A DNA stretch of 64,000 bases from Stenotrophomonas sp. SAU14A_NAIMI4_5 (lineage in GTDB: Bacteria; Pseudomonadota; Gammaproteobacteria; Xanthomonadales; Xanthomonadaceae), in assembly GCF_003086795.1 (NCBI RefSeq), contig NZ_CP026003.1, forward strand, positions 3,725,531 to 3,789,530, written 5' to 3'. A program made the position numbers and the translations under genes. A model generated the notes under the pieces. That model saw nothing but the letters and a program-made list of their open reading frames with translations, did not search any database and was not told the DNA's origin. Positions 18,397 to 56,368 of this stretch are shown here, piece by piece. Each line of letters begins with the position of its first letter. Position 1 is the stretch's first letter.

Positions 18397-18690
18397 GGGG
18401 TTTTGTCGGCAGGGCTGCGCCCTGCACCCGCTCGATGCAACGTCAACGTCAACGTCAACGGCAAGAGCGGCTATCCGTGGGATGGCGGGGTGGGTCCGGT
18501 TGCGGGGGACGCTGCAAGTACGTCCATGTAAGCTCGGTCGCCGCTTGCTCGTGTGCGCTGTCCTGCGCACACGGCAAGACCGGGGTTGGGCGTCCTGCCC
18601 AACCCGCCCGAGGCATGCCTCGGGCCCATGCGGCTCACGCCCCCGCAACCGGACCCACCCCGCCTTCGACAGTTTCCTGCGAGCTGTTGG
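18397..18690 (+). repeat. Composite hairpin repeat, copy 1
   Basis: Intergenic element between the TonB receptor start and the QEGLA gene end. In order it holds a GCAGGGC hairpin (18409-18425), a (CAACGT)n run (18438-18461), and a long stem with perfectly complementary 25-base arms (18484-18508 and 18640-18664; core TGGGTCCGGTT). The conserved loop ACGCTGCAAGTACGTCC...TAAGCTCGGTCGCCGC is followed by three nested small hairpins not found in the shortest copy. After the stem comes CTTCGACAG, then a SMAG element (18726). The same order recurs at 55570 and, reversed, at 56150. It has no coding potential: the apparent reading frames are short and inconsistent. Function unknown. Confidence 0.85.
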
Positions 18691-18725
18691 AACCTGCCGC
18701 TGATGGAACCTGCTGCTGTTGGTGG

Positions 18726-18785
18726 GTGCCGACCGTTGGTCGGCACAGGGTCGGATCCCGTTGCTTGGCAACGGGCTCTGACCCC
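18726..18785. repeat. SMAG palindrome followed by a GGGTC dyad
   Basis: A GTGCCGACC/GGTCGGCAC palindrome (18726-18746) is followed at once by a dyad (18748-18785) with outer arms GGGTCGGATCCC and GGGCTCTGACCCC. The two arms pair except for a conserved two-position mismatch. A T-rich stretch follows on the plus strand. Together with the composite repeat they fill the 18284-18839 gap, which otherwise shows nothing recognisable apart from the TonB-receptor leader. Confidence 0.85.
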
Positions 18786-18839
18786 GGTTCTGTTTTTGAT
18801 TTTTGCGACTGTTTTCGGTGGGGCTTCCACCAACGCCTT

Positions 18840-20093
18840 TCACTCCGGCGCCAGCTGGTCCATCCGGATGCGGTTGGCGAACAGCGAGAACGCCAGCATT
18901 CCCGCCAGGCCATTGGCCCGGCTCACCCAATGCGGCAGCCAGCGCGGTGGCTTCAGTACGCCGCTCTCGAACAACGGTGCGAACGCGATCGCGTCGGTCA
19001 GGCTCATCTTGCCGGCAAACAACCAGCGGCAGACCTGCAGGCGGTCCTCGGCCAGCATGTGGCGGAAGAACGTGTGCACCGACACCAGTCCGCGCAGGTA
19101 CACCGTGTCCTTGGTGAAGGCCAGGCCGCCGCTCGGTGGTACGCCGCGGAACACGCGCTGCGCCGAGGCGAAGCTTTCCTCCGGGTTCTGCCCGGCATCG
19201 CAGAAGTAGCGGTACACCTCGATGAAATCCGCACCTTCGCGTGCCATCGCGATGGCTTCGGTGCGCAGGCTGATGCGCTTCAGACGCTCGATGTCGATGC
19301 TGCCGGTGATCTGCTCGGCGAACGTAGCCAGGCCTTCCTGGGTGGCGGTCACCCGTGGTGAGGACAGCGCCAGGCTGGGCAGCACCGGTTGTTCGCGGCC
19401 GTTCAAGGCGGTCAGCGAATGCACCAGCGCTTCGTGGTGGAACAACTGCGCGCGGTCGTAGGCGCTGAAGCGTGCACTGGTGCGCAGGCGGATGCGGGTC
19501 GGGCCGGCAGCAGCCTTGGACACCAGCTCCGGGTCCAGCTGGACCTGGATGATGCGCGATTCGAAGAAACCATCGAGGTCGTTCTGCAGCTGCAACTGCA
19601 GGGCGATGGCGGAGACGGGCACCTGTTCTTCCGGGGCCAGCAGTTCGCTGTCGAGCTCGCTGGCGATCTGGATGAAGTGGCGGGCCGCTTCGCGCGTGCT
19701 CGGGCCATTGCCGGGCAATGGCTGCTCCGGCGCACCGAACAGCTGCACGGAACAGCGATCGACAGCGGCGGTGCCCAGGCCTTCCAGCAGCTGCGCAGCC
19801 AGGTCCCAGCTCTGCGCGGACTGCTGCACGTAGTGGCCCAGCGGATGGCTGGGATCACATTCGGCGGCGATGGCGGCCAGCGCGCGGCGTTCCTCGCTGA
19901 AGTCCAGTTTCGGATAGTCCACCTTCGGCAGCACCGGCTGGCCGCGCGCCACGCTGTCCAGGAACGGTGCCTGCACCGTTGCCGGCCAACTGGTGAGCCC
20001 CAGCAGGCGGATGCCGCCCACGGCCTCGACCAGTCGCGCGTCGAGCGCCGCATGGTGGGCCACGTCATGGTCCAGCGTCGCGGTCGTTTCCAT
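18840..20093 (-). CDS. QEGLA-motif protein (DUF1704 / MatCA-like putative peptidase)
   Basis: A 417-residue soluble protein from the ATG at 20093 (METTATLDHDV). The frame upstream to 20300 is repeat-derived. It contains the diagnostic TQEGLATFAEQ segment and an upstream FHHEALVHSL, whose histidines and glutamate form the metal-site motif seen in tyrosine-carboxypeptidase-like DUF1704 proteins. Bacterial members are annotated as flavohaemoglobin expression-modulating proteins, a label with little mechanism behind it. It stands alone on the minus strand, with repeat-rich spacers on both sides, and no partner gene is evident. Confidence 0.88.
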   Translation of the reverse strand: METTATLDHDVAHHAALDARLVEAVGGIRLLGLTSWPATVQAPFLDSVARGQPVLPKVDYPKLDFSEERRALAAIAAECDPSHPLGHYVQQSAQSWDLAAQLLEGLGTAAVDRCSVQLFGAPEQPLPGNGPSTREAARHFIQIASELDSELLAPEEQVPVSAIALQLQLQNDLDGFFESRIIQVQLDPELVSKAAAGPTRIRLRTSARFSAYDRAQLFHHEALVHSLTALNGREQPVLPSLALSSPRVTATQEGLATFAEQITGSIDIERLKRISLRTEAIAMAREGADFIEVYRYFCDAGQNPEESFASAQRVFRGVPPSGGLAFTKDTVYLRGLVSVHTFFRHMLAEDRLQVCRWLFAGKMSLTDAIAFAPLFESGVLKPPRWLPHWVSRANGLAGMLAFSLFANRIRMDQLAPE

Positions 20094-20144
20094 GGGCGGA
20101 CTATAGCGCCCTGCCCCGGGTTTGGTCGTTTCAAGCGGAACCCG

Positions 20145-20289
20145 GTAGTTGCCAACCTTGGTTGGCATCCGCCGCAGGCGGGGCTTCTGACACACCCGTG
20201 CCAACCAGGGTTGGCACCTGCCAGGGGCAGGCAGAGGCGGGTCCGTTGCAGGGTTCAGAGCCCATTGCGATGCAATGGGATCCGACCCT
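20145..20289. repeat. Two SMAG-type palindromes and one GGGTC dyad
   Basis: Spacer between rsgA and the QEGLA gene. It holds GTTGCCAACC/GGTTGGCA (20145-20168, with GTAG head), GTGCCAACC/GGTTGGCAC (20198-20217) and a dyad with arms GGGTTCAGAGCCCATTGC and GCAATGGGATCCGACCC (20251-20289). The last belongs to the same family as 18748, 25978 and 48997. Confidence 0.85.
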
Positions 20290-20299
20290 GCGATACCCA

Positions 20300-21400
<1,101 letters not shown>

Positions 21401-21522
21401 CGCCGCCATTCTAACCGGCCCGATGCCCTGCCAGCCCAACAACGGCAGGCCCTGGGGCCTTGCCATGCACTGCAGCAATTCCGGTAGGATGGAAACCCCA
21501 CGCCTTTTGACGGCCCAGCCCC

Positions 21523-22797
21523 ATGTCCACCCCCTCGCACAAGCCCCTGGCCACCCGCGAGCGCCTTTCCGAAGTGCGCTACGAGATCCGCGGAGAGCTG
21601 GCCCGGCGAGCGCGGGAGCTGGAAGCGCAGGGCCGCAAGCTGATCAAGCTGAACATCGGCAACCCGGGCAACTTCGGCTTCCGTGCGCCGGAACACCTGC
21701 AGCACGCCATCGCCGATGACATGGGCCGCACCGATCCCTATACCCACCAGCAGGGCCTGCCGGTGGCCCGCGAAGCCATCGCCGCCGCCTATGCGCGCCG
21801 TGGTGCGCCCGATGCCCACCCGGACCGCGTGTTCGTCGGCAACGGCGTCAGCGAGCTGATCGACCTGTCGCTGCGCGCCCTGCTGAACCCGGGCGACGAA
21901 GTGCTGGTGCCCTCGCCGGACTACCCGCTGTGGTCGGCCGCGGCCATCCTCAACGACGGCCGCCCGGTGTACTACCGCTGCGCGCCGGAGAACGGCTTCC
22001 AGCCCGACCCGACCGAGATCGAGACGCTGGTGTCCTCGCGTACCCGCGCCATCGTGCTGATCAACCCGAACAACCCCAGCGGCGCCAGCTACCCGCGCGA
22101 GCTGCTGGAGCGCGTGGTCGAGATTGCCCGCCGCCACAACCTGCTGCTGCTGGTCGACGAGATCTACGACCAGATCCTGTACGACGACGCGGTGTTCCAG
22201 CCGGTCGCGCCGCTGGCCGGCGACCATCCGTGCCTGACCTTCAGCGGCCTGAGCAAGGTGCACCGCGCCTGCGGCTGGCGCGTGGGCTGGGCCCACCTCA
22301 CCGGCGACGACGCGCGCCTGGGCGAGTTCCGCGCCGCGCTCGACCTGCTAAGCGCGCTGCGCCTGTGCGCCAACGTGCCGGGCCAGTACGCCATCGACGC
22401 CGCGGTGAACGGCCCGGACACCATTTCCGAACTGTGCGCCCCCGGCGGCCGCCTGTATGAAACCCGCCGCGCGGTGATCGAGGCCTGCAACGCCAGCGAG
22501 CACCTGTCGCTGGTCGCCCCGGCCGGCGCGCTGTACGCGTTCCCGGCCGTGGTCGGTGCCGCCGCCAAGGGCTTCGACGACCATAACTTCGCGCTGGACC
22601 TGATGAACGACGAAGGCGTGCTGGTCGTGCCGGGCTCGAGCTTCAACGTGCCCTACCGCCACCACTTCCGCGTGACCCTGCTGCCGGAAGCCTCGGTGAT
22701 GCGCGATGTGTTCGCGCGCATCGACCGCGTGCTGGCCCGCCGCGCCGAAGACGCCACCAAGGTCGTGCCGCTGAAGCCGCGCCGCTCGGTGGCCTGA
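21523..22797 (+). CDS. alaA: AlaA-like alanine aminotransferase (PLP-dependent, class I)
   Basis: A 424-residue fold-type I aminotransferase of the AlaA/YfbQ group, making alanine from pyruvate and glutamate. Visible motifs are KLIKLNIGNPGNFGF near the start, GNGVSELIDLSLRALL, LINPNNPSGASYP, LVDEIYDQILYDD and the PLP lysine in FSGLSKVHRACGWRVGW. The C-terminus has VVPGSSFNV and FRVTLLPE. It is followed without gap by the GDSL hydrolase (GTG at 22800) and a methyltransferase, forming a likely three-gene transcript. Divergent from rsgA. Confidence 0.92.
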   Translation: MSTPSHKPLATRERLSEVRYEIRGELARRARELEAQGRKLIKLNIGNPGNFGFRAPEHLQHAIADDMGRTDPYTHQQGLPVAREAIAAAYARRGAPDAHPDRVFVGNGVSELIDLSLRALLNPGDEVLVPSPDYPLWSAAAILNDGRPVYYRCAPENGFQPDPTEIETLVSSRTRAIVLINPNNPSGASYPRELLERVVEIARRHNLLLLVDEIYDQILYDDAVFQPVAPLAGDHPCLTFSGLSKVHRACGWRVGWAHLTGDDARLGEFRAALDLLSALRLCANVPGQYAIDAAVNGPDTISELCAPGGRLYETRRAVIEACNASEHLSLVAPAGALYAFPAVVGAAAKGFDDHNFALDLMNDEGVLVVPGSSFNVPYRHHFRVTLLPEASVMRDVFARIDRVLARRAEDATKVVPLKPRRSVA

Positions 22798-22799
22798 GC

Positions 22800-23417
22800 G
22801 TGGCGCTGTCCTACCTGGCGCTGGGCGACTCGTACACCATCGGCGAAGCGGTCGCGGTTGAAGGCCGCTGGCCGCACCAGCTGGCTGCCGCGCTGCGTGC
22901 GCAGGGCGTGGACCTGGCCGACCCGCTGACCATCGCCACCACCGGCTGGACCACCGACGAGCTCGACGCTGGCATCAATGCGGCCGCACCGCAGGGCCCG
23001 TTCGATTTCGTCAGCCTGCTGATCGGGGTCAACAACCAGTACCGCGGGCGCCCGCTGGACGAGTACCGCCAGCAGTTCGAGGCCCTGCTGCAGCGTGCGA
23101 TCGGCTATGCCGGTGGCGATGCCGGGCGCGTGCTGGTGCTGTCCTTCCCCGACTGGGGCACGACCCCGTTCGGTGCCGGCAGCGGCCGTGACCTGGCCCG
23201 CATCGGGATCGAGACCGACGAATTCAACGCCGCCGCCAAGGTCATCAGCACCCAGCAGGGCGTGGCCTTCGTCGACATCACCGACATCAGCCGCACGCAC
23301 GGCGCCGACCCGGCGATGATCGCCGAGGACGGCCTGCATCCCTCCGCGCGGATGTATGCGTTGTGGGCCGCACGCGCCCTGCCCGTGGCCACGCGCCTGC
23401 TGCAGCGAACGGACTGA
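22800..23417 (+). CDS. SGNH/GDSL-family hydrolase
   Basis: A 205-residue esterase-type hydrolase. Block I is LALGDSYTIGEA with the nucleophilic Ser. The block III-like Asn is in LIGVNNQYRG. The catalytic Asp/His are in EDGLHPSARMY near the C-terminus. No signal peptide is seen, so it is probably cytoplasmic. The start is a GTG at 22800, two bases after the stop of alaA, indicating translational coupling. The next gene begins right after its stop. The substrate is unknown. Confidence 0.9.
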   Translation: MALSYLALGDSYTIGEAVAVEGRWPHQLAAALRAQGVDLADPLTIATTGWTTDELDAGINAAAPQGPFDFVSLLIGVNNQYRGRPLDEYRQQFEALLQRAIGYAGGDAGRVLVLSFPDWGTTPFGAGSGRDLARIGIETDEFNAAAKVISTQQGVAFVDITDISRTHGADPAMIAEDGLHPSARMYALWAARALPVATRLLQRTD

Positions 23418-23420
23418 GTG

Positions 23421-24137
23421 ATGGATGGCCTGCCAGGGAACGGCACACCACTGAACTGTTCGCCGCTGGAGCGCGGCCAGGCACGGGCCATCGCCGAGGC
23501 GTTCCGCCCGGTGCAGGCCTGGGGCAACCGCCGCGACTACTACTACACGCGCGGCAAGCTGGGCAGCGACCCGCTGTACGACGGCGTGCTGCAGCACCTT
23601 CCCGACGATGGCCTGCCGCTGCTCGACCTGGGCTGCGGGCTGGGCCTGTTCGCCCACGTGCTGCGCCAGCGCGGCCGCGGCCAGCCCTATCTGGGCGTGG
23701 ACGTGGATGCGGGCAAGATCGCCCGCGCGCAGCGGGCCGGTGGCGACCTGCTGAATGTGCGATTCGACTGCCTGGACGTGCAGGCGCCCCTGCCTGCGCA
23801 GGCCGGGCACGTGCTGCTGCTGGACGTGCTGCAGTACCTGGATGCGCAGCCGCAGCTGGACCTGCTGAAAGCCGCCAGCGCCCGGGTCGCGCCCGGCGCC
23901 CGCCTGCTGCTGCGCACGCCGCTGGCCACCGGCGACCGCCGCGACCGCACCACGCGCGTGGCTGATCGGCTGGCCTGGCTGGTGGGCTGGATGGGCACCC
24001 GGCCGCGGCATTACCCCGACCCGGCACTGCTGCGGGCGACGCTGGCCGAAGCCGGATTGCAGGTGGGCGAGGTGCAGCCGCTGCATGGGCGCACACCGTT
24101 CAACAGCTGGCTGCTGGTAGCGCAGCGGGAGCGGTAG
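23421..24137 (+). CDS. SAM-dependent class I methyltransferase
   Basis: A 238-residue cytoplasmic protein with a Rossmann-type SAM site: motif I LLDLGCGLGLFAHVL, motif II GVDVDAGKIARAQ, then VLLLDVLQYLD and ARLLLRTPLA. A GTG at 23418 directly precedes the chosen ATG at 23421; either could start. It is third in the alaA-GDSL-methyltransferase set with no spacing. The target substrate is not evident. The TAG stop (24135-24137) lies inside the GTAG head of a SMAG element, suggesting that the element inserted at, or reshaped, the C-terminus. Confidence 0.85.
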   Translation: MDGLPGNGTPLNCSPLERGQARAIAEAFRPVQAWGNRRDYYYTRGKLGSDPLYDGVLQHLPDDGLPLLDLGCGLGLFAHVLRQRGRGQPYLGVDVDAGKIARAQRAGGDLLNVRFDCLDVQAPLPAQAGHVLLLDVLQYLDAQPQLDLLKAASARVAPGARLLLRTPLATGDRRDRTTRVADRLAWLVGWMGTRPRHYPDPALLRATLAEAGLQVGEVQPLHGRTPFNSWLLVAQRER

Positions 24138-24195
24138 CGCCGGGCCATGCCCGGCGGAATTCCGCAGAGGTTCGCCGGGCATGGCCCGGCGCTAC
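24134..24195. repeat. Inverted SMAG pair between convergent genes
   Basis: Two GTAGCGCCGGGC/GCCCGGCG palindromes face each other (24134-24156 and, inverted, 24173-24195), spanning the whole gap between the methyltransferase and deacetylase genes. They can form a single long hairpin, and the first supplies the methyltransferase stop codon. Confidence 0.9.
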
Positions 24196-24199
24196 CAAG

Positions 24200-24979
24200 C
24201 TACAGCGACGGCAGCCGCGCCTTCAGCCCGCGCTGGTCCAGCACCTGCAGCACGCGCTCGATGATGGCCAGGTTGTGGCCATGTGCGGCACCTTCATGCA
24301 GCAGCACGATGGCACCGGGCTGCAGGTCCGGCAGCAGGCGCGCCATCACGCCGTCGGGCGTGCAGCCCACGCCGTCATAGCCACGCGCGGTCCAGCCCAC
24401 CCGCACCAGGCCCAGCGCGGCCAGCACCGGCGCCACGAACGGGTTGGTCATGCCCACCACAGAGCGGTACCAGCGTGTCGGGCGGCCGCTGACCGCCTGC
24501 AGGGCCTGGTGGCAGCCTTCGATCTCGGCACGCATCGCCGACGGGCCCAGCCGCCAGAAGCGGGTCTGCGGATGGGTATGGCTGTGGTTGCCGAGGTCGT
24601 GGCCGCGACGCAGGATCTCTTCCACCAGGACCGGATGCGCCAGTGCGCGCTCGCCGACCAGGAAGAAGGTCGCCTTCGCCTGGTGCCGGTCGAGCAGATC
24701 CAGCAGTGCCGGGGTCTCCTCGCTGGGGCCATCGTCGATGGTCAGCCAGACGCTGTCGCCCGCATCGGGCAGGCGGTCCAGCACCGGCGTGTAGAAGCGG
24801 CTGTTGGGCAGGAACACCGGCACCATGAACAGTGCGTGGCTGGCCACCATCAACGGCAGCCCCCAGTGCCAGCCGGCCAGCACCCAGACCAGGATCACCG
24901 CCACCTGCGACGCCACCAGCCAGGGCAGCCAGCGCCACGGCCGGGTCGGGATGCGATGCAATGTTCCTGCGTTGGTCAT
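24200..24979 (-). CDS. Membrane-anchored polysaccharide deacetylase (NodB domain)
   Basis: A 259-residue protein starting MTNAGTLHRIPTRPW, with two N-terminal hydrophobic segments (about 16-32 and 35-51) and a NodB domain outside the membrane. Metal and catalytic motifs are visible: LTIDDGPSEET (catalytic Asp pair) and GNHSHTHP (His ligands), with later blocks RWYRSVVG and AIVLLHEGAA. Such enzymes remove acetyl groups from cell-wall or surface polysaccharides. The long upstream frame to 25843 is antisense to the glutaredoxin gene and was discarded. An ATG at 24994 is an alternative start without a ribosome site. Confidence 0.88.
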   Translation of the reverse strand: MTNAGTLHRIPTRPWRWLPWLVASQVAVILVWVLAGWHWGLPLMVASHALFMVPVFLPNSRFYTPVLDRLPDAGDSVWLTIDDGPSEETPALLDLLDRHQAKATFFLVGERALAHPVLVEEILRRGHDLGNHSHTHPQTRFWRLGPSAMRAEIEGCHQALQAVSGRPTRWYRSVVGMTNPFVAPVLAALGLVRVGWTARGYDGVGCTPDGVMARLLPDLQPGAIVLLHEGAAHGHNLAIIERVLQVLDQRGLKARLPSL

Positions 24980-25039
24980 GCCCCATGATGCCATGGGGCG
25001 TAGAATGGGTGATTCGAATTTACGGACCCTAGACTGCCC

Positions 25040-25966
25040 ATGTCCCTCGATCCCGCCCTGCGTTCGCGCATCGAATCCCTCCTCAACGACAACCGCGTCG
25101 TGCTGTTCATGAAGGGCCAGCCGTCGATGCCGCAGTGCGGCTTCTCGGCCAAGGCCGTGGGCGCCCTGCAGGACCTGGGCGTCGATTTCGCCCACGTCAA
25201 CGTGCTGGCCGACCAGGAAATCCGTGAAGGCATCAAGGCCTATGGCGACTGGCCGACCATCCCGCAGCTGTACATCGACGGCGAACTGGTCGGTGGCAGC
25301 GACATCATCCTGCAGATGGCCGCCAGCGGCGAACTGAGCACCGTGCTCGGCCTGGCCGCACCGGACCGCACCCCGCCGCGCATCACCGTCACCCCGGCCG
25401 CGGTGGAAATGCTGAAGGGCGCGCTGGCCGATGCCCCGGGCGCTTCGCTGCAGCTGACCATCGATGCGCGCTTCCAGCCGAACTTCCAGCTGGCCCCGCA
25501 CGATGACAGCGCGATCGCCGCCGAATCCAACGGCCTGCGCGTGCAGTTCGACCTGTCCAGCGCGCGCCGCGCCGACGGCATCACCATCGACTGGGTCGAT
25601 GACATCCGCGGCAAGGGCCTGGCCATCGACAACCCGAACGCGCCCAAGCCGGTGCAGGAAATCAGCGTGCGTGACGCCGACGACCTCGTGCGTGCAGGCA
25701 ACGTGACCCTGGTCGACGTGCGCCCGGCCGACGAACGCGCCATTGCCGCCGTCGGTGTGCCGTTCAAGAGCTTCGACGGCAACGGCCGTGCCGAGCTGGA
25801 AGGCCTGCCCAAGGACACCCCGCTGGCCTTCCTGTGCCACCACGGTGGCCGCAGCGCGCAGGCTGCCGAGCAGTTCCGCACCCTGGGCTTCACCAAGGTG
25901 TTCAACGTCACCGGCGGCATCGACGCCTGGTCGGACGAAGTGGACAACGGCGTGCCGAAGTACTGA
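25040..25966 (+). CDS. grxD: Monothiol glutaredoxin with A-type-like and rhodanese domains
   Basis: A 308-residue protein. Residues 1-105 are a Grx4-type monothiol glutaredoxin with the CGFS active site (MPQCGFSAKA) and WPTIPQLYIDGELVGG, which binds and transfers Fe-S clusters. Residues ~112-205 resemble an A-type Fe-S carrier fold (RITVTPAAVEMLK ... ITIDWVDDIRGKGLAIDNPN) but lack the three cysteines of IscA/ErpA. Residues ~215-305 are a rhodanese domain, with active Cys in FLCHHGGRSAQAA. The combination suggests Fe-S or sulfur trafficking. Biochemical roles of the middle and last parts are inferred. It is followed by a dyad and a strong terminator. Confidence 0.92.
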   Translation: MSLDPALRSRIESLLNDNRVVLFMKGQPSMPQCGFSAKAVGALQDLGVDFAHVNVLADQEIREGIKAYGDWPTIPQLYIDGELVGGSDIILQMAASGELSTVLGLAAPDRTPPRITVTPAAVEMLKGALADAPGASLQLTIDARFQPNFQLAPHDDSAIAAESNGLRVQFDLSSARRADGITIDWVDDIRGKGLAIDNPNAPKPVQEISVRDADDLVRAGNVTLVDVRPADERAIAAVGVPFKSFDGNGRAELEGLPKDTPLAFLCHHGGRSAQAAEQFRTLGFTKVFNVTGGIDAWSDEVDNGVPKY

Positions 25967-25977
25967 TCGGCCGCTAC

Positions 25978-26016
25978 GGGGTCAGAGCCCTTTCCTGCGG
26001 AAAGGGCTCTGACCCC
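25978..26016. repeat. GGGTC-type dyad (perfect copy)
   Basis: A perfect inverted repeat with arms GGGGTCAGAGCCCTTTCC and its complement around a TGC loop, just after grxD. It is the same family as the dyads at 18748, 20251 and 48997, but here both arms carry the AG version, so no mismatch is present. Confidence 0.88.
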
Positions 26017-26022
26017 ACCACT

Positions 26023-26053
26023 AAAAACGCCGGCAGACGCCGGCGTTTTTTTT
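26023..26053 (+). terminator. Rho-independent terminator after grxD
   Basis: AAAACGCCGGC ... GCCGGCG stem followed by eight T residues, a textbook intrinsic terminator for the plus strand. The A-run on the left makes it potentially bidirectional, serving the convergent DUF924 gene too. Confidence 0.93.
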
Positions 26054-26076
26054 ATCCACGCGTGGCGTGGATCTAC
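26054..26076 (-). repeat. SMAG palindrome overlapping the DUF924 stop codon
   Basis: ATCCACGC/GCGTGGAT palindrome with its GTAG head on the minus strand. The TAG at 26075-26073 is the stop codon of the DUF924 gene. Confidence 0.9.
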
Positions 26077-26612: not shown

Positions 26613-26655
26613 CACCTGCTCTCCAGGGCCAGCGCGCGGCGCCAGACCATCATCA

Positions 26656-27432: not shown

Positions 27433-27499
27433 GGCGCATCCGCTACGGCGTGGGGCCGCTATTGTAGGCGCGTGCCCGCCAGCCTTCACCTGGCCCGGC

Positions 27500-27533
27500 A
27501 ACAAAGAAGGGCGGCCCTGCGGCCGCCCTTCGG
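27500..27533 (-). terminator. Hairpin terminator after the autotransporter gene
   Basis: A GAAGGGCGGCC/GGCCGCCCTTC stem, followed on the minus strand by TTTGTTG, sits between the autotransporter stop (27582) and the amn start. The short T-tract suggests a moderate intrinsic terminator. Confidence 0.75.
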
Positions 27534-27581
27534 GGTTCCCGGCACGTCCTGCCCGGGAACCGTTACTGCCTCGCCGGGCGC

Positions 27582-30971
<3,390 letters not shown>

Positions 30972-46768: not shown

Positions 46769-46788
46769 GGCGAGCCACCTGCGGAACT

Positions 46789-47759: not shown

Positions 47760-47887
47760 CGGCAGCCTCCATTGGGGACACGATGTCCCGCCAAGAGGGA
47801 AATCGAAGCTCTTTATGTGCCTTGGTGTCAACTCCATCCTGTGTGCATGGCGCCACGGGCGCCCTCCCCCACACCGAGATGACCGAG

Positions 47888-48991: not shown

Positions 48992-48996
48992 CCGGG

Positions 48997-49037
48997 CATG
49001 GGGTCAGAGCCGCGCCAGGCGCGGATCCGACCCCATG
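48997..49037. repeat. GGGTC-type dyad
   Basis: CATGGGGTCAGAGCCGCGCC arm and its near complement GGCGCGGATCCGACCCCATG between the convergent OYE and SMI1/KNR4 genes. It repeats the AG-versus-GA mismatch seen at 18748 and 20251. Confidence 0.88.
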
Positions 49038-49040
49038 CGT

Positions 49041-49718
49041 TCAAGCGTCCTCGCGCACGTAGGCGAACGACTCGTCCAGCCGCGGGAAGCCGATCACCTG
49101 CTGTACCAGCGCCTGTGCCTCGTCATCGGTGATGTCGCCTTCAGCAATTTCGCTCTCGCGCGCGAACAGCGCCGCCACTGCCGCGTACTGGTCGGCGCGC
49201 AGAACCGGCTGGTGGTTCTGCAACCAGCGCTGCAGGTTCACGGCCAGCTCGCCATGCGACAACAGCGTATACGGCCGCTCATATTCGGCCACCGCTTCAA
49301 CCATCTTGCGGAACACGAAGTCCTGGTAGTTGGCGGCCAGCACATCGGCACGGTCATCGTCATGCCACACCAGCACGACCGGCGGCTCGTCGAAGCCGGG
49401 GGCATTGGTCCAGAAGCAGTAGCTGTCACCTGCCCCGGTGCGTGCGAACGGCAGCAGCTGCAGGTCCGCGCGCAGGGGATTGTAGTGATCTTCAGCCGTG
49501 AGCTCCTGCCACGCCTCCAGCAGCTCGTCGTGCTCCAGCGGCTCGTAGTCCTGGGCATACAGCAGTACCGGCGGGTCGTCCTGCAGCGTGGGGAACACCG
49601 TTTTGGACCACTGCGGATGGCTGCCGCCCCAGCTCAACCGACCTGCGTCATGCAGCTGCTGGAACAGCGGCGGGAATGCCTGGCCGGTCGCCTGTTCGAT
49701 GTCGCTCAATCTGCTCAT
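49041..49718 (-). CDS. SMI1/KNR4-like protein
   Basis: A 225-residue soluble acidic protein starting MSRLSDIEQATGQAFPPLF (ATG 49718, with AAGGA five bases upstream; a second ATG at 49733 lacks a site). The opening helix and the FPPLFQQLHDAGRL segment, and the later DSYCFWTN and PPVVLVWHDDD, fit the SMI1/KNR4 superfamily. In bacteria many members are immunity proteins of contact-dependent or polymorphic toxins; others are housekeeping. No toxin gene lies beside it, so its role is not assigned. Confidence 0.75.
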   Translation of the reverse strand: MSRLSDIEQATGQAFPPLFQQLHDAGRLSWGGSHPQWSKTVFPTLQDDPPVLLYAQDYEPLEHDELLEAWQELTAEDHYNPLRADLQLLPFARTGAGDSYCFWTNAPGFDEPPVVLVWHDDDRADVLAANYQDFVFRKMVEAVAEYERPYTLLSHGELAVNLQRWLQNHQPVLRADQYAAVAALFARESEIAEGDITDDEAQALVQQVIGFPRLDESFAYVREDA

Positions 49719-49833
49719 GGATGTCCTTGTCATGGGGAGCCACCTACCTTGCCTGAATTCACCCGGCAGATGAACCCGCAGCCTGCTCCAGCAGGTCTAG
49801 ACTGCACGCAACCGGCCCCCGCAGATCCCTGCC

Positions 49834-50250
49834 ATGGACTCCCCCGCCCGCACCTTCATCGTCAACATCGATGTGCCCGATCTGGCCGCTGCCGAAGCGT
49901 TCTACGTTGCAGCCTTCGGCCTGCGCGTCGGCCGCCGGCTGGGGACCGGCGCGCTTGAACTGCTCGGTGGTTCCACCCCGCTGTACCTGCTGCAGAGTGA
50001 TGCGGGCAGCGTGGCCACCGACGAGGGCGACGTGCGCGATTACGAGCGGCATTGGACGCCGCTGCACCTGGACTGGGTGGTAGAAGACATCAATGTCGCG
50101 CTGTCACGCGCGGTGGCCGCCGGCGCGGTGATCGAACTGCCGGTGAGCGAACGCCGCTGGGGGCGGCTGGCGGTGCTGGCCGACCCGTTCGGGCATGGGT
50201 TCTGCCTGATCCAGTTCGTTGGGTTGGGGTATGACGCGCTGGTGGAGTGA
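49834..50250 (+). CDS. VOC-family (glyoxalase/bleomycin-resistance-like) protein
   Basis: A 138-residue protein with the paired beta-alpha-beta-beta-beta modules of the VOC superfamily. It begins FIVNIDVPDLAAAEAFYVAAFGL and has TPLHLDWVVEDINVALSRAVAAGA, then GRLAVLADPFGHGFCLIQF at the second module. Metal-ligand residues (His in LHLDWV, Glu/His late) are plausible but not certain. Members detoxify electrophiles or bind drugs. It is a single gene between the SMI1/KNR4 and LysR genes, followed by SMAG repeats. Confidence 0.88.
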   Translation: MDSPARTFIVNIDVPDLAAAEAFYVAAFGLRVGRRLGTGALELLGGSTPLYLLQSDAGSVATDEGDVRDYERHWTPLHLDWVVEDINVALSRAVAAGAVIELPVSERRWGRLAVLADPFGHGFCLIQFVGLGYDALVE

Positions 50251-50261
50251 TCGGGGCCTGC

Positions 50262-50347
50262 CATCCACGCATGGCGTGGATCTACTGCATCCACGCATGG
50301 CGTGGATCTACTGCCTGATGCGGTGGGTGCCGACCGGTGGTCGGCAC
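50262..50347. repeat. Three SMAG palindromes
   Basis: Two identical inverted CATCCACGC/GCGTGGAT elements (50262-50285 and 50288-50311, 26-bp period) and a GTGCCGACC/GGTCGGCAC element (50327-50347) lie between the convergent VOC and LysR genes. Confidence 0.9.
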
Positions 50348-50358
50348 GGCATCCCGCC

Positions 50359-51243
50359 TCACTCCCGCAACATGTCCACGAACGCGCGCAGCGCCGACGA
50401 CATCTGCCGCTGCTTCGGGTAATACAGCACGAAGCCGGGAAAGGGTTCACTCCAGTCCTGCAGCACCGCCACCATCGTCCCGGCCTCGATATGCGGGCGC
50501 GCGGCATCTTCCAGCACATAGGCCAGGCCGAAACCATCCAGCACCGCGCGCATGATGGTGGTCTGCTCGCTCAGCGTCAGCCGCCCGCGCACGTCGATTT
50601 CCAGCGACTGCCCATCGCGGTCGAACTGCCACTTGTACAGGTGCCCGCTGGCGAAACGGAAACGGATGCATTCGTGCTGCAGCAGGTCGCGCGGGTGCTG
50701 CGGCGCCGGGTGCTGCCGCAGGTACTCCGGCGAGGCCACGATCATGCCGTGCAGCGCCGGCCCCAGCGGCACCGCCACCATGTCCTCGGGCACGAACTCA
50801 TGCAGGCGCACGCCGGCATCGAAGCCATCGGCGACGATGTCGACCAGGCCATCGTTCTCTGTCAGCTCCAGCCGCACATCCGGGTGCGCGCGCAGGAAGC
50901 GGGTCAGCCGCGGACCGAGCTGGGTCGGCACCGCCGCACGCGCCGCGTTGATGCGCAGCAGGCCGGTCGGGCTGTCCCTGAACTGGTTCATTTCTTCCAG
51001 CGCGTCGTGCACCTGGCCCAACGCTGGCTGCAGCCGGTCCAGCAGGCGCTGCCCGGCCTCGGTCAGGGCCACGCTGCGGGTGGTGCGGTGGAACAGGCCC
51101 ACGCCCAGCCGTTCTTCCAGCGCGCGGATCGCATAGCTCACCGCCGAGGTCGACAGGGTCAGCTCGCCGCCGGCCTTGCGGAAGCTGCGGTGGCGGGCCA
51201 CGGCGGCGAAGGCGGCCAGGTGGGAGAGATTGTCAGAGGCCAT
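50359..51243 (-). CDS. LysR-family regulator divergent from the alcohol dehydrogenase gene
   Basis: A 294-residue regulator: MASDNLSHLAAFAAVARHRS, helix-turn-helix SFRKAGGELTLSTSAVSYAIRALEERLGVGLFHRTTRSV, then an effector domain opening with GLLRINAARAAVPTQLGPRL and closing with GTMVAVLQDWSEPFPGFVLYYP, as in the CrgA/AaeR-like clade common in Xanthomonadaceae. It shares a 104-bp intergenic region with the divergent zinc alcohol dehydrogenase gene and probably regulates it. The ligand is not known. Confidence 0.92.
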   Translation of the reverse strand: MASDNLSHLAAFAAVARHRSFRKAGGELTLSTSAVSYAIRALEERLGVGLFHRTTRSVALTEAGQRLLDRLQPALGQVHDALEEMNQFRDSPTGLLRINAARAAVPTQLGPRLTRFLRAHPDVRLELTENDGLVDIVADGFDAGVRLHEFVPEDMVAVPLGPALHGMIVASPEYLRQHPAPQHPRDLLQHECIRFRFASGHLYKWQFDRDGQSLEIDVRGRLTLSEQTTIMRAVLDGFGLAYVLEDAARPHIEAGTMVAVLQDWSEPFPGFVLYYPKQRQMSSALRAFVDMLRE

Positions 51244-51347
51244 TATGCAGTCTGCCTTGATGAATCATGCCGATATCCAGGCTTTGTAGGCCGGTACTAG
51301 GGGCGTATTGTAAAGCGCCTTTCGACAAACCCCGCCAAGGATTCCCC

Positions 51348-52400
51348 ATGTCCCTCGCCCATGGTTATGCGGTACGCACCAACACCGCCCCGCTCGAGCC
51401 CTTCACCTTCGAACGTCGCGCCGTCGGCGCCAACGACATCCGCATCGAAGTGCTGTACAGCGGCATCTGCCATTCCGACCTGCACCAGGCCCGCGACGAT
51501 TGGGGCGGCGCCGAGTACCCGATGGTGCCGGGCCACGAGATCATCGGCCGCGTGGTCGAAGTCGGCCCGTCCGTCACCACCCTGAAGGTCGGCGATTTCG
51601 CCGGCGTCGGCTGCATGGTCGATTCCTGCCGCCATTGCGATGCCTGCGACCACGACCTGGAGCAGTACTGCGAAAAGGGCCCGACCTACACCTACAACAG
51701 CCACGACCGGAACACCGGCGAGCTGACCATGGGTGGCTACTCCGACCACATCGTGGTCGAGCAGCGGTTCGTGGTGAAGGTCTCTGAAAAGCTGGACCTG
51801 AAGGCCGCCGCGCCGCTGCTGTGCGCCGGCATCACCACCTACTCGCCGCTGCGCCACTGGAAGGTCGGCCCGGGCCAGAAGGTGGGCGTGATCGGTCTGG
51901 GTGGCCTCGGCCACATGGGCGTGAAGTTCGCCAAGGCGATGGGCGCCACCGTGGTGATGATCACCACCACCCCGGAAAAGGGTGCCGACGCCAAGCGCCT
52001 GGGTGCCGACGAAGTGCTGGTCTCGCGCGACGCGGAGCAGATGAAGGCCCACGCCAACAGCTTCGACTTCCTGCTCAACACGGTGCCGGTCAGCCATGAC
52101 ACCAACCCGTACATGAGCCTGCTCAAGCGCGATGCCACCATGTGCCTGGTCGGCGTCATCACCGAACTCGACCCGCCGCTGATGGGTGGCACGGTCATCT
52201 TCGGCCGCAAGCACGTCACCGGCTCGGCCATCGGCGGCATGGCCGAAACCCAGGAGATGATGGACTTCTGCGCCGAGCACGGCATCGTCAGCGATGTTGA
52301 AGTGATCAACATCAAGGACGTGAACCAGGCCTGGGAGCGCATGGCGAAGAACGATGTGCGCTACCGCTTCGTGATCGACATGGCCACCATCAAGGCCTGA
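51348..52400 (+). CDS. Zinc-dependent NAD(P) alcohol/aldehyde dehydrogenase (YahK/CAD type)
   Basis: A 350-residue medium-chain dehydrogenase. Catalytic-zinc residues are in SGICHSDLHQARDDW and MVPGHEIIGRVVEVG, and structural-zinc Cys in DSCRHCDACDHDLEQYC. The nucleotide loop VIGLGGLGHMGVKFAKAMGA is followed by ITTTPEKGADAKRLGA. This is the YahK/cinnamyl-alcohol group, broad-range NADPH aldehyde reductases. AAGGATTCC precedes the ATG at 51348; the longer frame was rejected. A strong terminator follows at 52421. It probably belongs to the aldehyde-detoxifying set with frmRAB and the OYE gene. Confidence 0.93.
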   Translation: MSLAHGYAVRTNTAPLEPFTFERRAVGANDIRIEVLYSGICHSDLHQARDDWGGAEYPMVPGHEIIGRVVEVGPSVTTLKVGDFAGVGCMVDSCRHCDACDHDLEQYCEKGPTYTYNSHDRNTGELTMGGYSDHIVVEQRFVVKVSEKLDLKAAAPLLCAGITTYSPLRHWKVGPGQKVGVIGLGGLGHMGVKFAKAMGATVVMITTTPEKGADAKRLGADEVLVSRDAEQMKAHANSFDFLLNTVPVSHDTNPYMSLLKRDATMCLVGVITELDPPLMGGTVIFGRKHVTGSAIGGMAETQEMMDFCAEHGIVSDVEVINIKDVNQAWERMAKNDVRYRFVIDMATIKA

Positions 52401-52420
52401 TCGCTGCAGTGATGGAACGA

Positions 52421-52450
52421 AAAAACCCCGGCATTGCCGGGGTTTTTTCT
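52421..52450 (+). terminator. Rho-independent terminator after the alcohol dehydrogenase gene
   Basis: AAAAAACCCCGGC/GCCGGGGTTTTTT stem with a T-run immediately after. The symmetrical A and T runs make it work in both directions, for the dehydrogenase and for the convergent gshA. Confidence 0.93.
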
Positions 52451-52454
52451 TTAG

Positions 52455-52512
52455 GTAGTGCCGGCCGCTGGCCGGCAACTCCGTACAGCTGCCGGCCAGC
52501 GGCCGGCACTAC
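52455..52512. repeat. Inverted SMAG pair
   Basis: GTAGTGCCGGCC/GGCCGGCA (52455-52478) and its inverse (52490-52512) face each other next to the terminator, between the dehydrogenase and gshA genes. Confidence 0.9.
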
Positions 52513-52522
52513 CGCGAGACGG

Positions 52523-53887
52523 TCAGTACGCGAATTCTTTGAACACCGGATCGACATCGCCATGCCAGCGGCCATGGAACAGCGCCAGCTTGCGCTCGGC
52601 CGGGGTCAGGCCCGATTCGACGATCTCCTGCAGCACGTCCAGGAACTTGCTTTCGTCCTGGCCATCGGCATTGCGTGCACCGCGGCGCTTGAGGCCTTCC
52701 ACGGAAATCTTCACCGCTTCGCGGGCCAGGTCGCGCACGGTGCCGTTGCGGAACGGCAGGCCCATCGCGTACTTCGGCACGCCGTCGCGCAGCGCGTGGC
52801 GCTCGGCCAGGCTGAAATCACGCACCAGGTCCCAGGCCGCATCCAGCGCGGTGTCGTCGTACAGCAGGCCGACCCAGAACGCCGGCAGCGCGCACAGGCG
52901 GCTCCACGGGCCACCGTCGGCACCGCGCATTTCCAGGTACTTCTTCAGGCGCACTTCCGGGAAGGCGGTGGTCATGTGGTCCGACCAGTCGCGCAGCGTC
53001 GGCAGCGCACCCGGCAGCACCGGCAGCTTGCCCTGCATGAAATCGCGGAAGCTCTGCCCGCTGGCATCGTGGTAGATGCCATCGCGGTAGGAGAAGTACA
53101 TCGGCACGTCGAGCAGGTAATCGACATAGCGCTCGTAACCGAAGCCATCCTCGAACACGAAGTCGAGCATCCCGGTACGGTCGGCGTCGGTGTCGGTCCA
53201 GATGTGCGAGCGGTAGCTCAGGTAGCCGTTCGGCTTGCCTTCGGTGAACGGCGAATCGGCGAACAGCGCGGTGGCGATCGGCTGCAGCGCCAGCGACACG
53301 CGGAACTTCTTCACCATGTCCGCTTCGGTGGCGTAATCCAGGTTGACCTGCACGGTGGAGGTGCGGGTCATCATGTCCAGGCCGAGCGAACCGACCTTGG
53401 GCATGTAGGAACGCATGATCTTGTAGCGGCCCTTGGGCATCCACGGCATTTCATCGCGCGTCCACTTCGGCTGGAAGCCCATGCCGAGGAAGCCGAGCTG
53501 CAGTTCGCCGGCCACCTGCGCCACTTCGTTCAAGTGGGTGCCGGTTTCCACGCAGGTCTGGTGGATGGTTTCCAGCGCCGCACCGGACAGCTCCAGCTGG
53601 CCGGCCGGCTCCAGCGTCACCGAGGCGTTGTCACGCAGCAGGGCGATGGTGTTGCCGTTCTCCTGCACCGGCTCCCAGCCGAAGCGGGTCAGGCCGTTGA
53701 GCAGGGCTTCGATGCCGCGCTCGCCTTCGAAGGTCGGCGGGCGAAGATCGTCCAGGCGGAACCCGAACTTCTCGTGTTCGGTACCGATGCGCCACTGCGC
53801 ACGGGGCTTTTCGCCGGAGGCAAGCACCTCGACCAGCTCCGAGCGGTCGGTAATGGGCGTATCGGCGACGTGGCTGGGGCTCGACAA
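52523..53887 (-). CDS. gshA: Glutamate-cysteine ligase, plant/alphaproteobacterial type
   Basis: A 454-residue ligase making gamma-glutamylcysteine for glutathione synthesis. The sequence shows the GCS2-type blocks [60 protein letters not shown] and [12 protein letters not shown]. This class, shared with plants, is typical of Xanthomonadaceae. No ATG fits: the family start matches a TTG at 53887 (read as [12 protein letters not shown]), with no clear ribosome site. The ATG at 54001 would add 38 unrelated residues. The start is therefore uncertain. The product would supply the thiol used by FrmA and FghA nearby. Confidence 0.9.
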
Positions 53888-54038
53888 GGGGAGGACTCGC
53901 TGGACAGTGGCAGGGGATGTGGGGCTGGGGGCCTTCCATCGCAAGGGCGCACTATAGCGTGGCGGCCCTTCGCAGCATGCGACGGTGACGGGTTTCAGCA
54001 TCCTACCGACGACCTCTTGACCCCCGTACACTCAGGCC

Positions 54039-54743
54039 ATGAGCCGCCATTCACGACACCCGGAACTGCACCGCGCCGACCGCGTCGGCTGGCTGCGCGC
54101 CGCCGTGCTGGGGGCCAACGACGGCATCGTCTCGGTCGCCGGCCTGGTGGTCGGCGTGGCCGCCAGCGGTGCCTCGGCCAGCACGATCCTGGCCACCGGC
54201 GTGGCCGGCACCGTGGCCGGCGCGATGTCGATGGCCGCCGGAGAATACGTTTCGGTGCAGACCCAGGCCGACACCGAAGCGGCCGACCTGGCCGTGGAAA
54301 TGCGCGAGCTGCACGAAGACCCGCACAGCGAGCTGGACGAGCTGACCGCGATCTATCGCCATCGCGGCCTGCAGCCGGCACTGGCCCGGCACGTGGCCGA
54401 GCAGCTGACCGCACACGATGCGCTGGGCGCACACGCACGCGACGAGCTCGGCATCACCGACACCCTGCGCGCACGCCCCCTGCAGGCTGCCCTGGCCTCG
54501 GCCGGTGCGTTTACCTGCGGCGCCGCACTGCCGGTGCTGACCGCCCTGTTCTCCAGCGCGGCGCAAGTCACCGTGGCGACCACCGCCAGCACCCTGATCG
54601 GCCTGTGCCTGACCGGCGCGATGGCCGCCCGTGCAGGTGGCGCGCCGCCGCTGCGCGGCGCGGTGCGGGTGATGTTCTGGGGCGCACTGGCGATGGCCGC
54701 CGCCGCGGGCATCGGCAAACTGCTGGGGGCCCACCTGTCATGA
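54039..54743 (+). CDS. VIT1/CCC1-family iron or manganese transporter
   Basis: A 234-residue membrane protein of the vacuolar-iron-transporter family. VGWLRAAVLGANDGIVSVAGLVVGVAASG is the diagnostic first segment, followed by TVAGAMSMAAGEYVSVQTQADTE (metal site), a cytoplasmic helix-rich domain with conserved Glu, and three C-terminal transmembrane segments. It would move Fe2+ or Mn2+ out of the cytoplasm. Its stop overlaps the ATG of the AraC regulator (ATGA), so the two are one transcript. It is divergent from gshA across 151 bp. Confidence 0.93.
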   Translation: MSRHSRHPELHRADRVGWLRAAVLGANDGIVSVAGLVVGVAASGASASTILATGVAGTVAGAMSMAAGEYVSVQTQADTEAADLAVEMRELHEDPHSELDELTAIYRHRGLQPALARHVAEQLTAHDALGAHARDELGITDTLRARPLQAALASAGAFTCGAALPVLTALFSSAAQVTVATTASTLIGLCLTGAMAARAGGAPPLRGAVRVMFWGALAMAAAAGIGKLLGAHLS

Positions 54744-55564
54744 CCACGATGCTGCCGCCTGACATTGCCCTGCTGGCCGAGATGGCCAGCCTGGCCGGCT
54801 GCGACCGTGCCGAAGGCTATGCCTGCATCACCGCGCGCCGCGAGCACGGTGCCAGTTCGGTGGAGATACCGCAGCCGCAGTTCGTCATCCTGCTGGAAGG
54901 CAGCAAGCAGGTACGCACCGCGCACCAGTCGCTGACCGCCCACGCCGGTGACATGCTGCTGTTCACCCAGCGCTGCCGGATCGATGTGGTCAACACCCCC
55001 GACGCAGGCACCGGCCGCTACCTCGGCGCCATCGTGCCGCTGTGCGCGGAAGTACTGAGTGCGGCGCGCACGCTGTGGAGCGAAGCACTGCCTGCGCCCG
55101 GCGATGCGATCGCGCAGCCGCGGCTGGTCGACCACGGCACGGTGCTGCGGCGCTGGCGCCAGGCATTGCAGGACGGGCATTACAGCGAAGCACGGTTGGC
55201 CTTGGCCGAACTGGTGCTGGCCTGGTGCCGGCAGGGCCACGGCAACCTGCTGTTGCCGCAGGCCCCGAGCTTGGGCGAGCAGATCCGCGACCGCATCGCC
55301 GCCGAGCCAGCGCGTGATTGGCAGTCGCGCGATGTGGAAGACCAGTTCGCGCTGAGCGGCGCGACCCTGCGCCGGCGCCTCGCCGCAGAACGCACCAGCC
55401 TTCGCCAGCTGCTGACCGAGGCGCGGCTGGCACACGGCATGACACTGCTGTACACGACCGATCTACCGCTGAAGACGGTGGCCGCCCGCGCGGGGTATCG
55501 CTCGGCGGCGAGTTTCAGCAAGCGCTTCGCCGAGCAGTACGGGCTGGCTCCGACGGACATCTAA
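54740..55564 (+). CDS. AraC-family transcriptional regulator
   Basis: A 274-residue regulator translationally coupled to the VIT gene. The N-terminal effector domain resembles the AraC N-terminal family seen in one-carbon or stress regulators (PQFVILLEGSKQVRTAHQSL, GDMLLFTQRCRIDVVN). The C-terminal AraC DNA-binding domain has two helix-turn-helix units: FALSGATLRRRLAAERTS and LPLKTVAARAGYRSAASFSKRFAEQYGLAPTD. The earlier part of the reading frame, back to 52409, is antisense to gshA and is not coding. The coupling suggests it controls the VIT transporter or a linked stress response. The ligand is unknown. Confidence 0.92.
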   Translation: MTTMLPPDIALLAEMASLAGCDRAEGYACITARREHGASSVEIPQPQFVILLEGSKQVRTAHQSLTAHAGDMLLFTQRCRIDVVNTPDAGTGRYLGAIVPLCAEVLSAARTLWSEALPAPGDAIAQPRLVDHGTVLRRWRQALQDGHYSEARLALAELVLAWCRQGHGNLLLPQAPSLGEQIRDRIAAEPARDWQSRDVEDQFALSGATLRRRLAAERTSLRQLLTEARLAHGMTLLYTTDLPLKTVAARAGYRSAASFSKRFAEQYGLAPTDI

Positions 55565-55569
55565 GGGGT

Positions 55570-55863
55570 GGGGTTGTCTGGCAGGGCTTGCAGCCCTGCA
55601 CCTGCTTCAAGCCGCGGCAACGGCAACGTCCAAAGCCGGAGCGGCATTCCGTGGGATGGCGGGGCACTGTGGGTTTGCGGGGACGCCGTAACCCCCCCTC
55701 CGGGGTCCGGCCCAGCCGCTGGCGGCTGTGCGTTCGGGCGCTCGCGAAGCAGTGCTTCGCAAGCAAAGCGCCCTCACCCATGGGGGCTTGGTCGCCGCAT
55801 CCATGCGGCTCACACCCCGCAAACCCACAGTGCCCCACCTTCGACAGGTTCACGCGGCTGTTG
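55570..55863 (+). repeat. Composite hairpin repeat, copy 2
   Basis: Same order as copy 1. A GCAGGGC hairpin lies at 55581-55599, followed by CAACGGCAACG and the long stem (arms 55658-55682 and 55815-55839, 24 of 25 positions paired). The conserved CTTGGTCGCCGCATCCATGCGGCTCAC sits before the right arm, and CTTCGACAG follows. The stem core is CACTGTGGGTTT instead of TGGGTCCGGTT, yet both arms changed together. Its loop carries different inserted hairpins (for example the 55737-55773 set) from copy 1. A SMAG follows at 55881. Confidence 0.85.
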
Positions 55864-55873
55864 GGAACTGCTG

Positions 55874-56135
55874 ATGGTGGGTGCCGACCGTTGGTCGGCA
55901 CATCCGTCGGATATCGAATGAATTCATCCACGCATGGCGTGGATCGACTGATAACGGCGACTTTTGGTAGGTGTCGACCGTTGGTCGGCACATCTGTCAA
56001 ATATCGGATAAATCATCCACGCATGGCGTGGATCTACTGGTAACGGCGGCTTTTGGTATGTGCCGACGGTTGGTCGGCACATCTGTCAGACATCGATATC
56101 CGACCCCGTGCCGACCAACGGTCGGCACCCACCAA
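55874..56135. repeat. Tandem ~90-bp array of SMAG palindrome pairs
   Basis: Alternating elements: GTGCCGACC type at 55881-55901, 55971-55991 and 56060-56080, with inverted ATCCACGC type at 55925-55948 and 56014-56037. The spacing is 90 then 89 bp, and intervening DNA (ATCTGTC..ATATCG and AACGGCG.CTTTT) is also repeated, so the array arose by tandem duplication. A last, inverted GTGCCGACC element (56108-56128) belongs to the reverse composite copy. Confidence 0.88.
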
Positions 56136-56149
56136 AGCAGAGCGCCGTT

Positions 56150-56368
56150 CTGACAGATCGCGGAGAACTGTCGAAGGCGGGGTGGGTCCGGTTGAGGGGG
56201 CGTGAGCCGCATGGATGCGGCGACCGAGCTTACAGGGACGTACTTGCAGCGTCCCCCTCAACCGGACCCACCCCGCCTACCCTCAGGAAACCTGCCTTTG
56301 ACGTTGCTTCGGCCGTTGCCGTTGCATTGAGCAGGTGCAGGGCTGCAAGCCCTGCCGAACAAAACCCC
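56150..56368 (-). repeat. Composite hairpin repeat, copy 3 (reverse orientation)
   Basis: The shortest copy. Perfect 25-base stem arms (56176-56200 and 56253-56277) are like copy 1, except for one base pair changed on both sides (GTTGAGGGGG pairs with CCCCCTCAAC; copy 1 has C-G there). The loop holds only the conserved GTGAGCCGCATGGATGCGG / GCTTACAGGGACGTACTTGC part, without the extra hairpins. The GCAACGG run and GCAGGGC hairpin (56337-56355) follow in reversed order. Confidence 0.85.

Follow-up and report, generated by a model that had tools for sequence, protein, structure and literature searches.

The stretch of DNA analysed here, referred to as the window, comprises 64,000 nucleotides (nt) of Stenotrophomonas sp. 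SAU14A_NAIMI4_5 (contig NZ_CP026003.1, positions 3,725,531 to 3,789,530) and holds three copies of a composite hairpin element, at 18397-18690 on the + strand (copy 1), 55570-55863 on the + strand (copy 2) and 56150-56368 on the - strand (copy 3). These positions, and the order of modules common to the three copies, agree with an earlier, sequence-only reading of the window: a GCAGGGC hairpin is followed by a CAACG-like run, a long outer stem, a CGACAG/CTGTCG hairpin and a repetitive extragenic palindrome (REP) of the SMAG type, which beside all three copies corresponds to the Smal3 repeat described in PMC2817692. The strand on which the modules are read in this order is called here the module strand, and its opposite the signal strand. 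The tip of the outer stem carries two small inner hairpins, a and b, and it is on the signal strand that their loop octamers read C-A-N-G-G-A-N-G (CANGGANG). Neither this loop motif nor the strand polarity described below was part of the sequence-only reading.

Copy 1 is flanked by two predicted genes, 15980-18268 and 18840-20093, both on the - strand. On the + strand, its GCAGGGC hairpin occupies 18409-18425 and its CAACG run 18437-18461, the arms of the outer stem (18484-18508 and 18640-18664) pair at 25 of 25 positions, the CGACAG hairpin lies at 18667-18690, and the REP, GGTGGGTGCCGACCGTTGGTCGGCAC, at 18721-18746. Inner hairpin b (18518-18533, - strand) has the loop octamer CATGGACG, which fits CANGGANG, while an insert of 81 nt made of three hairpins (18545-18625, + strand) sits at the tip of inner hairpin a and has, on the - strand, GGA inside two predicted loops (CAGGACG and CAGGACA). 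In copy 2, also read on the + strand, the GCAGGGC hairpin is found at 55581-55599, the CAACG run at 55616-55628, the CGACAG hairpin at 55842-55863 and the REP at 55876-55901. Its arms (55658-55682 and 55815-55839) pair at 24 of 25 positions, the mismatch being C.A on the + strand and thus G.U on the other. The insert of this copy (86 nt, 55694-55779) abolishes the GGA loop of inner hairpin b, and inner hairpin a (55794-55809, - strand) presents the octamer CATGGATG.

Copy 3 stands tail to tail with copy 2 and is read on the - strand, with the REP at 56108-56133, the arm on the CGACAG side at 56176-56200, the arm on the GCAGGGC side at 56253-56277 (25 of 25 paired) and the GCAGGGC hairpin at 56337-56355. 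Its signal strand is therefore the + strand, on which inner hairpin a (GCCGCATGGATGCGGC, 56206-56221, loop octamer CATGGATG) is formed in the predicted RNA fold, and inner hairpin b (TTACAGGGACGTA, 56230-56242) has the loop octamer CAGGGACG. Both octamers are intact in this copy, and copies 1 and 2 keep one each. The stem pairing, the single swapped pair between copies 1 and 3 (C-G versus A-T) and the differing inserts of copies 1 and 2 had all been described from the sequence and are borne out; the two inserts sit on the tips of different inner hairpins. Every copy folds better than all 200 of its dinucleotide shuffles, with z values of -10.9, -5.6 and -8.7 for copies 1, 2 and 3 as DNA of the module strand and of -12.6, -8.5 and -9.3 as RNA of the signal strand. 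As a separate observation, insert types such as those at 18545-18625 and 55694-55779 recur across several elements of the same genome, exactly at inner-hairpin tips, which look like insertion points for other hairpin-rich sequences.

The sequence-only reading had suggested a covariance-model search, and this search places the three copies in a large dispersed family with many members outside the window. A model built from 30 copies together with window copies 1 and 2 (R1) yields 127 matches at E<=1 in the 4.57-Mb single contig of this genome, two of which were dropped as antisense images of other matches. This leaves at least 125 copies, which fall into 88 clusters between genes; the count is a lower bound, as 150 of 4825 candidates were scored. 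None of these 125 copies has its midpoint within a gene predicted by the codon-usage gene caller. Pairs make up 37 of the 88 clusters, in all 37 of which the REP ends face each other, and five further copies within the fetched loci each complete another facing pair. A DNA search of the same genome gives 112 matching pieces, arms matched in reverse included.

Beyond this genome, R1 finds matches at genus level in 31 of 41 genomes and at order level in 62 of 250, and a second model built from 130 copies of relatives (R2) finds them at class level in 49 of 274 sampled genomes, which belong to 41 families by listing count; the genome of the window is counted in each figure, and the stricter filters and the few candidates scored per genome make the copy counts of these large surveys lower bounds. 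Among the matches listed, a pattern scan of named genomes gives Stenotrophomonas, Xanthomonas, [Pseudomonas] hibiscicola and Methylocucumis oryzae. The sequence-only reading recognised no published name for the element, and indeed the family is not found in the open-licence literature searched and the window has no Rfam match at the gathering threshold, Csr/Rsm RNA families included. At E<=1, the only Rfam match of this kind in two loci is a sub-threshold one to rsmX (22.9 bits, gathering 56), inside a predicted gene. An origin as a phage or plasmid element was discarded, with copy 3 giving no DNA match and one contig of the viral collection holding the pattern. So was a recurrent neighbouring gene acting as carrier, since the sole large cluster of neighbours looked, by eye, like spurious frames.

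The most conserved part of the element is the pair of loops. Four sets of distinct rows were compared, namely 113 from the genome of the window, 129 from its relatives, 30 from the class and 49 from five remote genomes. Among rows with 8-nt tips, CANGGANG is present at the two tips in 97/99 and 110/110 of the own-genome copies, 125/126 and 114/115 of those of relatives, 30/30 and 27/27 at class level, and 47/47 and 46/48 in the remote genomes. Both tips fit in the same row in 93/113, 114/129, 28/30 and 45/49 cases, respectively. Free variation is limited to octamer positions 3 and 7, the two Ns, and position 3 takes all four bases. All sets were collected with models built from members, so that copies devoid of these loops may be missed.

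This octamer matches the published consensus for binding of the CsrA/RsmA regulators. The Rsm consensus is given as (A/U)CANGGANG(U/A) in PMC6849547 and PMC4353343, where CATGGATG, the commonest tip octamer in the genome of the window, is itself among the Rsm sites of Pseudomonas putida that are bound and have been tested by mutation; for Xanthomonas, ACARGGAUG is given in a paper on that genus. The distance between the two sites is mostly 23 nt, a value found in 90/93 own-genome cores, 48/54 of the order set and 25/28 class-level copies, and in only 43/100 same-genus cores, where the loose pattern also caught other GGA loops. According to PMC7652899, CsrA bridges sites that are 10-63 nt apart, and best above 18. 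The genome of the window has one CsrA-family match.

Contrary to the loops, the outer stem keeps its pairing without keeping its sequence. The stem columns are paired in 98.1% of cases in the own-genome set, 95.3% in relatives and 98.2% at class level, with covariation scores of 0.563, 0.841 and 1.055, as opposed to 0.141, 0.182 and 0.210 in shuffled alignments, and in none of the three sets is the score attained by any of 500 shuffles. Fitting of the alignments to the model structure biases them toward it; slid controls score at most 0.16. The own-genome tally of core stems excludes 13 weak-stem cores, mostly truncated or carrying inserts, and cores shorter than 100 nt. Stem length at class level ranges from 21 to 40 bp. 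In one remote genome with 14 copies (G518), arm identity is 0.36, against 0.30 expected by chance, while the loops reach 0.87, and two further genomes give arm identities of 0.41 against 0.35 (G369) and 0.45 against 0.27 (G457). In a fourth one, G347, both the arms (0.84) and the flanks are alike, and its set of copies looks young. The closing C-G pair of the inner hairpins is never swapped in the own-genome and class sets or in hairpin a of relatives, and is swapped in 4/129 rows for hairpin b of relatives, whereas the neighbouring pairs swap freely. Because pairing is kept where sequence is not, the pairing of the stem is actively maintained, whatever its function, and the many copies, the strong covariation and the near-perfect stems of unrelated sequence in some genomes lend good support to the proposal that this is a structured family under selection for folding.

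The sequence-only reading had offered hairpin-driven gene conversion as an alternative, and exchange between copies is indeed plain. At the site orthologous to that of copy 3, 12 genomes (the own one included) have kept most of the arm and hold several loop types. An own-genome copy at 3242780-3242891 (- strand) combines the left arm of one type with the right arm of another, so that most of its stem cannot form, and is a trace of exchange between copies. In G347, 3 of 11 copies (L528, L530 and L531, compared with L523-L527 and L529) hold the core in reverse orientation between conserved flanks, as if it flipped between its own inverted arms; in a check for such flips in the genome of the window, 30 of 125 copies were not callable, many having shortened or insert-bearing cores. 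Loop swaps, hybrid arms and inverted cores would all fit an element with no hairpin function, in which palindromes undergo template switching and gene conversion that equalise the arms, and conversion between copies equalises the loops. Such conversion leaves unexplained, however, both the retention of CANGGANG across 41 families with only the Ns free and the strand polarity of the stem mismatches, and a family without any hairpin function is considered very improbable.

This polarity concerns the few positions at which the outer stem is not perfectly paired. Among mismatches counted over distinct outer stems on the module strand, A.C outnumbers G.T by 40:3 in the own genome, 81:7 in the same genus and 59:11 in the order, a set which may include a few same-genus copies; 4/100 own and 2/107 same-genus cores were left out of the count. 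Since A.C on the module strand is G.U on the other, the wobble favours the signal strand, by 180 to 21 over genus and order. Counts on model alignments, where inserted cores are treated differently, are 37:8 and 98:14, and copies with the exact loop pattern give 93:8 in Xanthomonas and 22:5 in named Stenotrophomonas, many of them related by descent. Four matched comparisons polarised by nearest neighbours agree (30:4, 5:1, 33:9 and 30:0). Unpaired columns have an approximately two-fold bias per site of G>A over C>T, with T>C over A>G at 1.2 and 0.75, and a one-strand C>T bias cannot explain the excess of T>C.

From the sequence of these copies it is tentatively proposed, with somewhat less than even confidence, that the elements are dispersed RNA docking sites, and probably decoys, for CsrA/RsmA. 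RNA of the signal strand would be transcribed either from its own promoter or by read-through from a neighbouring gene, and in most copies its two tip hairpins are predicted to present two CANGGANG sites, both of which would likely be gripped at once by a single CsrA/RsmA dimer. The effect would be the titration of the protein rather than the regulation of the neighbouring gene. The outer stem would probably just position the two sites and protect the RNA, and a role limited to scaffolding and protection could be the reason why its sequence is free and its pairing kept, while exchange between copies would reshuffle loops and arms. As the wobble and the two-site CsrA signal fall on the same strand, an RNA that docks CsrA/RsmA would be the most economical account of both.

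Several observations weigh against this interpretation. The first group concerns the sites themselves. Inserts leave window copies 1 and 2 with a single intact CANGGANG tip apiece. In the predicted best RNA folds of two-tip copies, from which rows longer than 125 nt were left aside (16 of the own-genome set, 2 of relatives), the GGA of site a is free in 82/92 own-genome copies, 98/114 of relatives, 26/28 at class level and 42/45 in the remote genomes, whereas that of site b is free in only 54/92, 56/114, 17/28 and 24/45, and both are free together in 54/92, 56/114, 17/28 and 22/45. Site b is free in only 3 of 26 predicted folds of own-genome copies with an CTGCAAGTACGTCC loop. Window copies 1 and 3 are both of this loop type, and in their predicted folds GGGACG or GGACG pairs with CGUCC(C): the site of inner hairpin b is paired with another stretch in copy 1, and in copy 3 its GGGACG pairs with CGUCCC.

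The stem statistics and the polarity add further points on the same side. Further pair types are not above shuffles in relatives and at class level, where 494/500 and 363/500 shuffles score as high, and the value of relatives for pairs changed on both sides is equalled in 11/500. The polarity is absent from the 30 best class-level copies (6:6) and weak in the 49 copies of the five remote genomes (23:12), five of which are common to both sets, so the polarity is a trait of near lineages, and its extension to the entire family is not proven. The GCAGGGC and CGACAG flanking hairpins lean to wobble on the opposite, module strand, by 6:0 and 23:9 distinct cases, as counted with loose patterns and a dirty parse of the GCAGGGC hairpin. 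Moreover, wobble on one strand would also be expected if single-stranded DNA of the signal strand were recognised.

The genomic setting is a main weakness of the RNA reading, as the orientation of genes favours neither strand as RNA. Of the 125 copies, 44 lie between convergent genes, 13 between divergent ones, and 34 and 34 in the two tandem settings, so that the signal strand is sense and antisense to tandem genes about equally often (34:34 in all copies and 13:13 in single copies, or 13:11 once the five later-found paired copies are removed). The elements also lie very near the stop codon of a gene that runs in the opposite sense. In 78/125 copies the gene on the GCAGGGC side points toward the element, and the GCAGGGC module begins 3-19 nt past its stop in 45 of the 62 copies with a recognisable module, the remainder comprising 13 negative distances and 4 of 33-374 nt.

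This arrangement would suit a function on the module strand tied to the end of the GCAGGGC-side gene, and the wobble of both flanking hairpins on that strand points the same way, as does the remote genome G457, where 5 of 11 copies begin 58-62 nt past the end of an open reading frame (ORF). For the remote genomes, a length-greedy gene caller matched the codon-based calls in 6 of 29 cases, and its counts were not used. Such a function is nonetheless judged quite unlikely, given that the outer-stem wobble runs in the opposite sense, that the tandem settings show no clear preference and that it offers no reason for the loops to be CNTCCNTG. T runs are also unfavourable to it: among 66 remote rows, in which three copies are counted twice, the stem is succeeded by a run of at least four T in just 8 on the + strand and 4 on the other. 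On the same counts, an intrinsic terminator was rejected.

The strongest rival to CsrA/RsmA docking, although rather unlikely in our estimate, is a mobile DNA element, in which an unknown recombinase would read the folded signal-strand tips of single-stranded DNA in a RAYT/REP-like fashion and the stem would be needed only for transposition. The folded DNA strand predicts the same wobble polarity, and the dispersed intergenic copies beside REPs, with all 37 paired clusters facing as in REP dimers, fit such an element. Its distribution is likewise patchy among relatives, with 10 of 41 genomes of the genus lacking a match, and orthologous sites without the element exist. For copy 1, ten other genomes have both flanks on one locus, of which five lack the element (L337, L339, L340, L341 and L344), three have it (L319, L321 and L322), one has the GCAGGGC part alone (L323) and one is undecided (L338); the element-free sites are too diverged to define the ends of the element. 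Against transposition stands the absence of the element, at E<=1, from all 25 loci of Y1 transposases (PF01797) searched, 6 in the own genome and 19 from seven of eight other genomes, as well as the lack of a RAYT-like ORF in 436 fetched, partly overlapping loci. The stems of remote copies such as those of G518 are near-perfect despite their unrelated arms, unlike decaying insertions, and the match to CANGGANG would have to be a coincidence.

The more specific candidate of a RAYT or TIRYT transposon end was rejected, as no element is found at the Y1 loci and the repeats that flank two transposase genes of Stenotrophomonas maltophilia strain D457 are different sequences. Two of the own-genome Y1 transposase genes (L500 and L503) have flanking REPs that belong to the types GGGTAGAGTCGACC and CGTAGAGTCGAGC, neither of which appears in the Stenotrophomonas rows of the table in PMC2817692. 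Beside one element (L023, approximately 1750-1900; just past 3828255 in the own genome) GGTGGGTGCTGTT units follow one another in a run, apparently copied from the REP head by slippage.

Among the closest known repeats are the SMAG/GTAG REPs and the bacterial interspersed mosaic elements, which are also intergenic and palindromic, often form inverted dimers and lie near gene ends; SMAG REPs directly adjoin many of the elements. REPs, however, measure 20-40 bp and have a GTAG head, and the element has a longer, unconserved stem with a two-hairpin tip. A GTAG/GTGG head with a short conserved stem, present in the adjoining REPs, was not found in the element cores, and in contrast to REPs, which have cognate RAYT genes, none was found beside the element. 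The terminal inverted repeats of the TIRYT elements of Stenotrophomonas maltophilia (PMC3733652) are likewise abundant, dispersed inverted repeats from that same species, but two transposase genes of D457, inferred to be TIRYT, are flanked by palindromes of the GGGGTCAGATCC type and by a AAAAGGGGACGGAGGGG repeat.

Miniature inverted-repeat transposable elements (MITEs) share with this family their short length, inverted-repeat structure, high copy number and absence of coding capacity. The termini of MITEs are conserved because they are read by the transposase. Here, on the contrary, conservation is lowest in the arms and highest in the loops.

The Csr/Rsm decoy RNAs (CsrB, CsrC, RsmX/Y/Z, RsmW, and RsmU in Xanthomonas) resemble the element in having several GGA motifs in hairpin loops at a spacing that a CsrA dimer can bridge. 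RsmU is described in PMC7694677 as deriving from a 3' untranslated region in Xanthomonas, and a Xanthomonas paper states that rsmB-type RNAs had not been found in that genus. These decoys are one or few defined RNA genes, whereas the element is a dispersed repeat of more than 100 copies, known here from sequence alone, which carries two sites on one long stem of free sequence and has no Rfam match at the curated threshold.

The family thus places a two-site CsrA signal at more than 100 locations of one genome, and the same signal recurs in Xanthomonas as well as in dozens of other families, with a maintained stem that in near lineages additionally marks one strand. It is possible, though on balance doubtful, that this reflects a class-wide, unrecognised system in which a selfish-looking hairpin family doubles as a missing CsrA/RsmA antagonist. 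More than 100 two-site RNAs per genome would then set the level of free regulator, with stems evolving freely as long as they remain paired and the second site perhaps switched by competing pairing. If true, this would make the repeats of a genome capable of setting how active a global regulator is.

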